NCBI GenBank assembly: GCA_029263175.1
Contig: JAJCXZ010000028.1
Coordinates: forward strand, 1 to 64,000
Direction of reading: 5' to 3'
Source of the DNA: Acidimicrobiales bacterium
Lineage (GTDB): Bacteria; Actinomycetota; Acidimicrobiia; Acidimicrobiales; Aldehydirespiratoraceae
Length of the DNA stretch: 64,000 bases
Under the pieces are notes generated by a model. The model was not told the DNA's origin, made no database searches, and was given only the letters and a program-made list of their open reading frames with translations. The first letter of the stretch is position 1. Every line of letters begins with the position of its first letter. Positions 1 to 10,956 of the stretch are shown piece after piece. Position numbers and translations under genes: made by a program.

Positions 1-516
1 GTGGGGTGGATGGTGGCTATTTATGTCACCACGGGTTTCAGCAACGATCTGTTCGGCCCCCGCGAGCCGGCGCCGCGCTCGCACTTCGCCACGTTCCTGT
101 GGCGCTATGCCGGCCGCCCGGAGGCCCCTGAAGACAGCGGGTTTGTCGACGTGCCGGTTGGCTCCTGGTATGCCCAGGCGGTGAGCTGGATGGTCGGTCA
201 CGGGCTGACCACCGGGGTCGGTGGCAACAAGTTCGGGCCCGACATGATCCTCACCCGAGCCGAAGCGATCACATTCTTGTGGCGACTGGCCGGATCGCCC
301 GACTCGAGCTTTGCCCACCGCTTCATCGACGTATCGGCATCGGACTTCTTCGATGTTCCGGTTCGGTGGGCCGCCGAGAATGGCGTCACCACCGGCGTGA
401 GTACGACGGTGTTCGGCACCGCTCAGCCGGTCACCCGCGCCCAAGCGGCGACCTTCCTGCATCGATTCGACATGTTGCTGCACGACACTCTGTCCCTACC
501 AGGAGCGGTTCAGTGA
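1..516 (+). CDS. SLH-domain (S-layer homology) protein, 5' end missing
   Basis: The 171 visible codons are built almost entirely of three S-layer homology modules, each with the pattern of a WM..GLTTG or WAAENGVTTG helix-turn followed by a FGP/FGT segment, a T/S-R-A hinge and an F-L-W/H-R-F/L helix. SLH modules attach exported proteins to secondary cell-wall polymers. The first visible residues are already mid-module, so the real start lies upstream of the window and the GTG at position 1 is not a credible start. The stop TGA at 514-516 overlaps the GTG of the next gene by 4 nt, so the two are almost certainly cotranslated. The enzymatic or binding part of the protein, if any, is upstream and not visible. 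Confidence 0.8.
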   Translation: MGWMVAIYVTTGFSNDLFGPREPAPRSHFATFLWRYAGRPEAPEDSGFVDVPVGSWYAQAVSWMVGHGLTTGVGGNKFGPDMILTRAEAITFLWRLAGSPDSSFAHRFIDVSASDFFDVPVRWAAENGVTTGVSTTVFGTAQPVTRAQAATFLHRFDMLLHDTLSLPGAVQ

Positions 517-1235
517 CCGTTCTCGTGGTTCTTCTCGGCGTGGCCGTCGGCTTGCTCACCATGCTCGTTTTCGGCCTCCTGCGTACTCATGCCGAGATCC
601 TTCGGGCCCTCGACCGGGCCGGGATCTCGATCGACGAACCGACGGCGCAGGGTGCGCCGGCGGTGCTCGGTCCGCAGCCGACTGGCCCCGCCACGTCCGG
701 CGGTGTGGTCGACATCACCGGCACGGTTCCCGGGGGCGGGCGGGTCAAGGTCGCCCTCGACGGCCGTCATCACACGCTGCTTGCGTTCCTCTCGTCCGGG
801 TGCCGCACTTGTCAGGCGTTCTGGGAGGCCTTCGCCGACCCGGGTCTCGACGTGCCGGGAATCGACACGAGGCTGGTGATCGTTGCCCAGGATCCTGCCC
901 ACGACTCCGAATCGCGCTTGGCGGAGCTTGCTCCGACCGGCGTGCGGATCGTGTGCTCCTCGGCCACGTGGCAATCGCTCGATGTGCCCGGCTCGCCCTT
1001 CTTCGTGATGATCGACGGCGCGTCTCGCACCGTGATCGGTTCGGGCACCGCTACGGGTTGGGATCAGGTCAAGGGATTGCTCGATCAGGCGGTTCTCGAC
1101 TCGGGAATGGAAGGGACCCGGCCCCACGGCGCCCCGAGCGTGGACGACGCGCTGACAGCAGCCGGCATCGGCCCCGGCCACCCGAGCCTCTACCCCGACG
1201 ATCCTGACGGTGACAGCGACGAGGCCCAGTCATGA
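513..1235 (+). CDS. membrane-anchored thioredoxin-like protein (TlpA/MauD type)
   Basis: A 240-residue protein with one N-terminal membrane segment (about residues 3-23), a Pro/Gly-rich linker, and a thioredoxin-like domain from about residue 76. The active-site CxxC is C97-R-T-C100, preceded by a strand LLAFLSSG, and a cis-Pro-like VPGSPFF segment follows about 75 residues later. This arrangement is typical of extracytoplasmic TlpA/ResA/MauD-like thiol-disulfide proteins. I chose the GTG at 513 because it overlaps the preceding stop (GTGA) and puts the hydrophobic anchor at the very N-terminus. The stop at 1233-1235 overlaps the ATG of the next gene in turn, so this is a tightly coupled operon. 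The C-terminal 45 residues are acidic and low in complexity. Confidence 0.85.
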   Translation: MTVLVVLLGVAVGLLTMLVFGLLRTHAEILRALDRAGISIDEPTAQGAPAVLGPQPTGPATSGGVVDITGTVPGGGRVKVALDGRHHTLLAFLSSGCRTCQAFWEAFADPGLDVPGIDTRLVIVAQDPAHDSESRLAELAPTGVRIVCSSATWQSLDVPGSPFFVMIDGASRTVIGSGTATGWDQVKGLLDQAVLDSGMEGTRPHGAPSVDDALTAAGIGPGHPSLYPDDPDGDSDEAQS

Positions 1236-1882
1236 GCGTGGTCGTGGCGTCCGTCGCGCTTGTCGCTGCTGTTCGATCAGCGTGGTCGCCCTGAGGTGTT
1301 TCGATGCTGACAAGCATCACCCCGCTCGGTGAGCAGGGACGTGGACAACGATGGGGCCTCACGGCAGGTTTTCTCCTCATCGGCCATCTGATCGGCGGCG
1401 CTGCACTCGCAGCCGTCCTTCTCGGCCTCGGGGCGACGGTGCATTGGGTCGCTGCTCCGTCTGACTCGACTGCTCTCGGTGTGGTGATCGTCGCCGCGGC
1501 CGTGGCGAGCGTCCTCGATCTCGGCAATCGGTCGCTGCCAGGCCGCCGACAGGTCGATGAGCGCTGGCTCACCGCGTACCGAGGTTGGGTCTACGGGTTC
1601 GGGTTCGGCGTGCAACTCGGCTTCGGGTTCGTGACAGTGATCAACACATTTCTCTTCGTCGCTCTCGTGATCGGTGGAGGGTTGCTCGATCCGGTACCCG
1701 CCTTTGTGATCGGCGTTGGGTATGGCGCTGTGCGGGGCGTGATGGCGCTGCTGAGCGGAGGTGTTCGCACGGTCGACGATCTGAAGCGGTTGCATCGTCG
1801 CCTCGATCGTGCGGATGGTTTCATGCGCTGGGCGGGAGCGGTCGTCGTGGGGGTGGGAGTGATAGGGGCGGTTGCGCTGTGA
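1232..1882 (+). CDS. candidate selenoprotein: polytopic membrane protein with in-frame TGA at codon 21
   Basis: Reading from the ATG at 1232 (ATGA overlap with the thioredoxin gene) gives 20 hydrophobic-rich residues ending RSAWSP, then TGA at 1292-1294, then 195 further in-frame residues with about five membrane segments. The TGA falls in a WSP-x-G-x-SML context; from memory, related actinobacterial membrane proteins have WSPCG there, and SPC is also the redox-Cys context of CcdA/DsbD-type electron transporters. A hairpin follows the TGA. I read it as selenocysteine (U21). Alternatives: a nonsense mutation or base-call error of a TGC/TGT codon, or internal initiation at the ATG at 1304 using GAGG at 1293-1296, which would lose the first membrane segment. 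The neighbouring CRTC thioredoxin suggests the pair moves reducing equivalents across the membrane (inference). Confidence 0.6.
1303..1318 (+). promoter_or_regulatory. SECIS-like hairpin after the in-frame TGA
   Basis: Perfect 6-bp stem GATGCT/AGCATC with tetraloop GACA. The stem starts 8 nt after the TGA at 1292-1294 and the loop starts with G, 14 nt after the TGA. Bacterial SECIS elements are stem-loops immediately downstream of UGA with a G at the start of the apical loop; the spacing here is at or slightly below the usual range. The stem also contains the possible internal ATG at 1304. Function is inferred. Confidence 0.45.
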
Positions 1883-2379
1883 GCGACGAACTCACGCTCG
1901 ACGGAGTTTCGGTCGCCGTTCCCCGGGGCTGGGAAGCCGAGCTTGGATACTTCACACAGCCGCACCCGGAGTCCGATGACATGGCCGACGGCCGCAGCTT
2001 CTCGACGCTGCACGGTGGTGGGAAACGTGTTCTGCTCCACTTGGCGAACTTCGCGCTCCCGACTGTGCGGGGTGACTATGGCTCCGGTGCGGTCGAGATG
2101 ATGGACGGCGGTTCGGTCTTCATCGCATTGCTCGAATGGGACCGGGCATCCGTCGACGACAAGCTCTTCGCCCGAGTCGGTCTCCCGACCGAGCTTCGCA
2201 CGGATGACTTCAACCCCAACGGCCTCCAGCGCCGACTTCCCGGTCAGGCAGGCGCCCAGCGGTTCTTTCAGAGCGGAGGTCGAGCGTTCGGCCTCTACGT
2301 CGTCCTCGGCTCCTATCGCCGCCGCGATGTCTTGGTCCCCGAGGTCAACCGCCTCCTCCGCACAATCCGTATCGACTGA
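1879..2379 (+). CDS. hypothetical protein, last gene of the thioredoxin operon
   Basis: A 166-residue soluble protein starting at a GTG that overlaps the preceding stop by 4 nt. There is no signal peptide and no membrane segment. It begins with a TLDGVSVAVPRGWEAEL segment and ends with a basic helix, which resembles small actinobacterial proteins of unknown function in which a beta-rich fold starts with a V-P-x-G-W motif. No catalytic motif is visible. The strict coupling to the thioredoxin and the candidate seleno-membrane protein suggests a common process, but no function can be assigned. Confidence 0.75.
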   Translation: MSDELTLDGVSVAVPRGWEAELGYFTQPHPESDDMADGRSFSTLHGGGKRVLLHLANFALPTVRGDYGSGAVEMMDGGSVFIALLEWDRASVDDKLFARVGLPTELRTDDFNPNGLQRRLPGQAGAQRFFQSGGRAFGLYVVLGSYRRRDVLVPEVNRLLRTIRID

Positions 2380-10347: not shown

Positions 10348-10956
10348 TCAGCTGAAGTCGGGAAGCGATTCCAGGATCTGCTGCTGCTCGTTAGGGCCGA
10401 AACCGAAGAAGACATTGCTTCCGCCGCTCAGATCGGGGGTGAGGAGCGCCATCGACGAGTTGGTGCGTACCCCGAAGTTCCGCCACGTGTCGAAGCTCGG
10501 GTCCCAGAGGAACGTGATCTCGTCGCCGAGGTCGTCGTGGGTGACGAACTCCTGCGCATAGCCGAAGTCGTCCTGAGTGCCGAGCCCGATGACCTGGACC
10601 TCGTCTGCGTGCTCTCGGGCAAACTGCCCGATCTCTGACCGCTCCCCGCGGCACGTCGGTCAATGCGGTGCCCAGAACCAGAGCAGCACCGGTCGATCCC
10701 CGTCGACCGCGTCACGCAGGCTGGAGACGCTGCCGTCGTCGACAGACAACACTTCGATGTCACGAACGTCGTCGGACGTGGCGAGGTTGGCTTGGTTCGC
10801 CGCTGCCGTAGAGGAGGCGTCAGGGGTCCCGGCGACAGCACTGGATGCCGCATCGCCGGTCTCGGTTGAGCCGCTGGCGCCGCAGGCGGAGGCCAGCAGC
10901 GCGAGGCCGATGACGACAGCTGCGGCCTGCGGGCGCGGAAAAGGGGAGGAGACCAT
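10348..10956 (-). CDS. candidate selenoprotein: thioredoxin-fold lipoprotein with UxxC active site
   Basis: From the ATG at 10956 there are 98 codons: a signal peptide with lipobox LASAC, a Ser/Thr/Ala linker, and a thioredoxin strand PVLLWFWAPH. An in-frame TGA follows at 10662-10660, then PTC and a further 100 codons in the same frame to a TGA at 10350-10348. The continuation is good thioredoxin sequence: VIGLGTQDDF strand, a FLWDPSFDTWRNFGV segment, and a SSMALLTPD cis-Pro-region equivalent. The TGA thus replaces the first cysteine of WAPxCxxC, giving U99-P-T-C102. This is the classic pattern of a Cys-to-Sec redox protein of the TlpA/ResA type, 202 residues if U is read. A recent nonsense mutation is the alternative, but there is no decay downstream. 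It is convergent with parC. Confidence 0.8.
10638..10652 (-). promoter_or_regulatory. SECIS-like hairpin after the in-frame TGA
   Basis: On the minus strand, GCCGC (10652-10648) pairs with GCGGT (10642-10638) around the loop GGGGA (10647-10643). The stem starts 7 nt after the TGA and the loop starts with G. A competing longer fold pairs the TGA itself: TGACCG (10662-10657) with CGGTCA (10641-10636). The geometry matches the hairpin at 1303-1318. Confidence 0.5.

Follow-up and report, generated by a model that had tools for sequence, protein, structure and literature searches.

A selenocysteine-containing membrane protein family of actinobacteria, apparently undescribed, encoded beside a thioredoxin and a Cys-rich wall protein

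The gene at positions 1232–1882 (forward strand) of the window, by which we mean the whole 64,000-nucleotide stretch analysed, almost certainly encodes a selenoprotein in which the in-frame TGA at 1292 is read as selenocysteine (Sec), as judged by sequence comparison. It belongs to what is apparently an undescribed family of selenium-containing membrane proteins, WSPUG, that is widespread in actinobacteria. Our best overall explanation joins Sec insertion, a conserved gene module and a role in thiol/disulfide chemistry, and we give it a probability of roughly 0.55. The features on which the argument draws, all on the forward strand, are as follows.

1–516 (+): Tat-type Cys-rich wall protein, C-terminal SLH part (SLH E = 3.7 × 10−19; aligns with the C-terminus of L087:1367-2542)
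513–1235 (+): mauD-like membrane-anchored thioredoxin-like protein, CRTC at 801–812, overlapping both neighbours
1232–1882 (+): selenoprotein gene, 216-residue membrane protein, Sec at residue 21 (WSPUG), from homologues, alignment and AlphaFold2 model
1292–1294 (+): in-frame TGA, read as Sec, from the TGA/Cys column in relatives
1303–1318 (+): hairpin 1 (GATGCT....AGCATC), paired cells 100% in Sec forms and 65% in Cys forms
1304–1306 (+): internal ATG, the conserved Met25 of the SML motif, from the Met column in Sec and Cys forms
1320–1338 (+): hairpin 2, bSECIS-type, CCCCGCTC-GGT-GAGCAGGG, apical loop 1328–1330, from folding and covariation
1879–2379 (+): small conserved module protein, overlapping the Sec gene by 4 nt

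Reading frame, start site and relatives

A preliminary description of this DNA had proposed that an ATG overlapping the thioredoxin stop opens a frame reading WSP-TGA-G and continuing for 195 residues. Both points hold. ATG 1232 overlaps the stop as ATGA (1232–1235), and the frame has TGA (1292–1294) as codon 21 of 216, reads SAW-S-P-TGA-G-V-S-M-L around it, continues for 195 residues and ends at a terminal TGA (1880–1882).

Homologues were sought in 296 genomes of the class with TGA read through, and relatives of the Sec gene were present in 69. The main family, with a clear motif, occurred in 63 genomes, 39 with exactly one in-frame TGA at the codon and 24 with Cys (TGC/TGT). Three further genomes had only a divergent version, with TGA, and the remaining matches were fragments. 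Named genome records, when scanned, contained 39 TGA forms and 38 Cys forms. Overall, more than 70 relatives have TGA at exactly that place (WSPUG) and more than 50 have Cys (WSPCG), and the surrounding motif, R-x-x-W-S-P-[U/C]-G-x-S-M-L, is invariant in the class homologues apart from rare changes at M. The Cys column at residue 21 that the preliminary description had proposed as support for Sec is thus present. Selenoproteins are recognised by an in-frame UGA at the Cys position of homologues within a conserved ORF, which is what we found. The TGA form occurs in the cultured strains Kineosphaera limosa, Pedococcus bigeumensis, Phycicoccus sp. Soil802 and Piscicoccus intestinalis. Within the same genus as the source genome, one genome has the gene and its TGA at 77% identity, and two lack the gene.

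It is very improbable that the gene starts at ATG 1304, with the TGA merely 5' of it. A gene caller would choose this start, and 1304–1882 is an unbroken ORF, but ATG 1304 encodes the Met that is conserved in the SML motif (Met in 38/39 Sec forms and 23/24 Cys forms), and Cys homologues read through the same position from starts 15–29 codons upstream. The 20 codons before the TGA are also kept as protein among relatives: between the window and the 77%-identical relative they differ at 5 first, 3 second and 13 third positions, and this third-position excess is the pattern expected of translated sequence. Homologues beginning at the equivalent of 1304 had been named as evidence against the longer frame; those we found, Cys and Sec forms alike, encode the upstream RSxWSP[C/U]G segment, and the 1304 start was rejected because they do.

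Less probable still is a sequencing error or a pseudogene, for dozens of independent genera share this TGA, in every case at the Cys column and followed by the same hairpin, although the source assembly is fragmented and a same-genus genome has a lone TGA in its CcdA gene; since homologues repeat the TGA at the Cys column, sequencing error was rejected. The CcdA gene in question (L172) is an ordinary one with VTULEV for VTGLEV, where relatives have Gly, and serves as a contrast case in which error or decay is likely.

We masked the Sec column and built a tree of 124 proteins, on which the Sec/Cys label required two changes (shuffled mean 40), the Cys forms comprising one large clade and one protein (L080) nested in Sec. 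As read from this tree without an established root, the pattern fits Sec as the original state, replaced by Cys on two or more occasions. A profile search of the phylum detected the family, sister groups included, in 53/296 genomes, mostly with one TGA. One sister subfamily, FGPUGLSMVETITPVVHGG (L195, L198, L202, L204–L207), belongs to other classes of the phylum and has the TGA in all members seen. A second is LWSPUGLSVTETVTPSVRG (L083, L084, L085, L212, L213), in which the frames of L083 and L084 continue into a lipoprotein-like domain.

Hairpins after the TGA and the Sec machinery

Sec forms have two hairpins directly 3' of the TGA, the second with eight possible pairs and an apical loop of GGU, GGC or GGG. 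In the window the GGT loop of hairpin 2 lies 33 nt after the UGA, and with this spacing the hairpin matches the published bSECIS model (PMC13188914). Its MFE is −9.7 kcal/mol, with one C·A mismatch in the stem because codon 35 is CAG; the nearest relative (77% identical) has CGG and a perfect stem. Mean MFE after the TGA was −19.9 kcal/mol in Sec forms versus −13.7 kcal/mol in Cys forms, with synonymous-shuffle z-scores of −2.1 versus −0.7 (P = 2.5 × 10−7, Mann-Whitney). Codons in the hairpin stretch are near-fixed in Sec forms (TCG 39/39, AGC 39/39, CCG 38/39, CTC 36/39, GAG 37/39, CGG 36/39), though synonymous codons would keep the protein. Hairpin 2 covaried in Sec forms, with 13 cells showing paired changes and 0/500 shuffles as high, whereas 60% of cells were paired at these positions in Cys forms, with no excess over shuffles. 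Covariation alone, measured against shuffles that treat sequences as unrelated, is moderate evidence; the contrast between Sec and Cys hairpins is the stronger point. The few sister-group members that were folded also had stable hairpins after the TGA.

The preliminary description had held that a genome without Sec machinery would speak against Sec, and had called for a check. The machinery is complete in the source genome: SelA, SelB, SelD and tRNA-Sec (anticodon TCA) all score above cut-off, and SelA and SelB are encoded side by side. The SelD (G000:C3:15979-16917, L017) itself has one in-frame TGA, consistent with a Sec-containing SelD. Across the class, SelA was found in 38/39 Sec-form genomes versus 11/24 Cys-form genomes (P = 2.7 × 10−6, Fisher test, genomes treated as independent). 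The single Sec-form genome in which SelA was not found, G188, has a completeness of 79% and a tRNA-Sec at 68 bits; because many Ser-type tRNAs pass the E threshold of this search, a tRNA was accepted as tRNA-Sec only at a score in the 60s. In three relatives, sel genes sit next to the operon: selB lies beside it in Pedococcus and Phycicoccus, and tRNA-Sec, selD and selA adjoin it in L118. The L118 contig is titled Melainabacteria, yet it carries the actinobacterial module, and is probably mis-binned or transferred.

The operon module

We identified a conserved module of five genes centred on a Cys-rich cell-wall protein that is uncharacterised. It comprises a MauE-like protein, the Tat-type Cys-rich wall protein, the membrane-anchored thioredoxin, the Sec protein and the small conserved protein. 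Gene overlaps run from the ORF at 1–516 through that at 1879–2379, so these four genes are tightly coupled. The operon partner had been described as a CRTC thioredoxin, and the CRTC is indeed encoded at 801–812, in a protein (513–1235) with no Pfam match. A thioredoxin homologue lies directly upstream in most Sec-form loci but is not adjacent in many Cys-form loci, and homologues of the small protein occur at 38/39 Sec loci and 20/38 Cys loci.

The start of the contig truncates the window's wall-protein gene, whose N-terminal part is G000:C53:21391-22014, on a contig of 22063. Contigs C53 (right end) and C28 (left end) of G000 are probably adjacent in the genome, because the Cys-rich gene is split between their ends. 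The right end of C53 also carries, upstream, the MauE-like gene (PF07291, 42.5 bits against a cut-off of 27, E = 9.7 × 10−11), and a MauE-family protein occurs in relatives' loci too. In relatives the Cys-rich exported protein is Tat-type with SLH or LGFP wall domains. It was present in 62/69 genomes with the Sec/Cys family versus 2/227 without (P = 3.8 × 10−53, genomes treated as independent). We considered whether this protein is a methylamine dehydrogenase (MADH) light chain (PF02975) and rejected it, as the Cys-rich locus gave no profile match even at E ≤ 10. Foldseek found no significant fold match for the Cys-rich protein, with light chains appearing only at E 4.6–8.8 (model confidence 70).

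Likeness to known systems, possible function and novelty

The AlphaFold2 model of the Sec protein is all-helical (pLDDT 92.6), and the window protein matches no Pfam family. The CcdA/DsbD-type label given in the preliminary description stands in part: the motif around the first Cys agrees with it, but no second catalytic Cys is present. Like CcdA/DsbD (PF02683, PF13386), the family has an SPC-type motif in the first membrane helix (WSP[U/C]G, invariant here) and is of similar size and helix content, and 15/56 relatives touch DsbD_2 (best 2.5 × 10−7) and 4 touch DsbD_TM. It differs in having Sec in place of the first Cys and, in a weak profile alignment, GFGxQLG where CcdA has PCxGP; at the second catalytic Cys (fourth helix, PC motif) the family has no other invariant Cys and the window protein none. 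Relative L036 falls short of the Pfam CcdA/DsbD_TM cut-off (20.9 vs 24.9). Foldseek placed CcdA (5vkv) first, but no structure match was significant (E = 0.35, TM 0.37 for this one). When the family was compared with a CcdA alignment by hhalign, 163 columns aligned at E = 0.045 (reversed control 0.14), a likeness that is suggestive only. VIA-align returned only generic helical transporters (Z under 8), and searching PDB sequences with the family profile gave no meaningful match. CcdA membership was not assigned, as the second Cys is absent.

A parallel in gene content is the MauD/MauE system of methylamine dehydrogenase maturation, where MauE is believed to help form the disulfides of the MADH beta subunit (PMC7794033). 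Both have a MauE protein (PF07291) and a membrane-anchored CxxC thioredoxin, presumably serving a Cys-rich exported protein. Here, however, there is no MADH light chain profile match, the presumed client, which carries SLH or LGFP wall domains, has a signal of Tat type, and a Sec membrane protein is present in addition.

We propose, at about even odds, that the protein is a Sec-dependent membrane thiol-disulfide partner of the thioredoxin and serves maturation of a Cys-rich wall protein. Sec insertion itself is shown by sequence comparison: SelB would bring Sec-tRNA(Sec) to UGA 1292, aided by the hairpin directly downstream, and Sec would be placed near the end of the first membrane helix, where relatives use Cys. 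The product would be a small polytopic membrane redox protein, distantly CcdA/DsbD-like, with a single redox residue; since a second Cys is not conserved, there is no ground for assuming a relay of two Cys as in CcdA. By analogy with MauD/MauE, we infer that one residue of the protein acts as a thiol/selenol relay to the operon thioredoxin. Together with this co-translated CxxC thioredoxin and the MauE-like protein, the Sec protein would exchange thiols and disulfides outside the cytoplasm; the near-obligate partnership within the module is shown by genome context. The selenol may form a selenenylsulfide with the thioredoxin CxxC, to be resolved by the second Cys of the thioredoxin. Such a relay could be used for oxidative folding or disulfide isomerisation of a Cys-rich protein, probably the Tat-type wall protein encoded in the same operon. 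Sequence does not tell in which direction the electrons flow.

It is possible, with a distinctly lower probability, that this real selenoprotein is instead a transporter or sensor whose Sec/Cys binds or passes a small sulfur or selenium compound or a metal. The single invariant redox residue, accompanied by invariant Gln128 and Arg residues, would suit such a role, and among the selenoproteins in a 2026 catalogue is a YeeE/YedE thiosulfate transporter whose motif is GUxSG. However, disulfide chemistry is favoured both by the near-obligate co-occurrence with the Cys-rich exported protein and by the link with a MauE-like protein and a CxxC thioredoxin.

That 2026 catalogue, covering 119 prokaryotic selenoprotein families, has no entry matching WSPUG, and NCBIfam selenoprotein models matched 0/56 members. 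The only DsbD-related entry in the catalogue, TsoB (a rhodanese/DsbD fusion-like selenoprotein, NF045694), differs in having two Sec (UxxxxU) and a rhodanese domain, and its NCBIfam model matched 0/56 members at E ≤ 0.1. In open-access text we found no paper describing the family, which may have been overlooked because standard gene callers would start at Met25. Catalogued prokaryotic selenoprotein families number more than 110 and are mostly soluble redox proteins, unlike the polytopic WSPUG protein. Roughly one in five of the genomes sampled from the class has the family (Sec and Cys forms), and the same holds for the phylum when the sister groups are counted. More tentatively, at a little under even odds, WSPUG and its sisters FGPUG and LWSPUG may form an undescribed selenoprotein superfamily common in Actinomycetota, a one-residue Sec-based membrane electron relay dedicated to maturation of a Cys-rich wall protein and a likely reason that these bacteria retain the Sec system. 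Some carriers are in culture, which makes the role of Sec in a membrane thiol relay testable.

The window also holds a second selenoprotein, of known type: a TlpA/redoxin-like lipoprotein (10348–10956, reverse strand) with WAPHUPTC (UxxC), whose TGA at 10660–10662 is followed, some 35 nt on, by a CGGGCA-GTT-TGCCCG hairpin. The other in-frame TGA mentioned in the preliminary description exists, and is apparently that of this gene.
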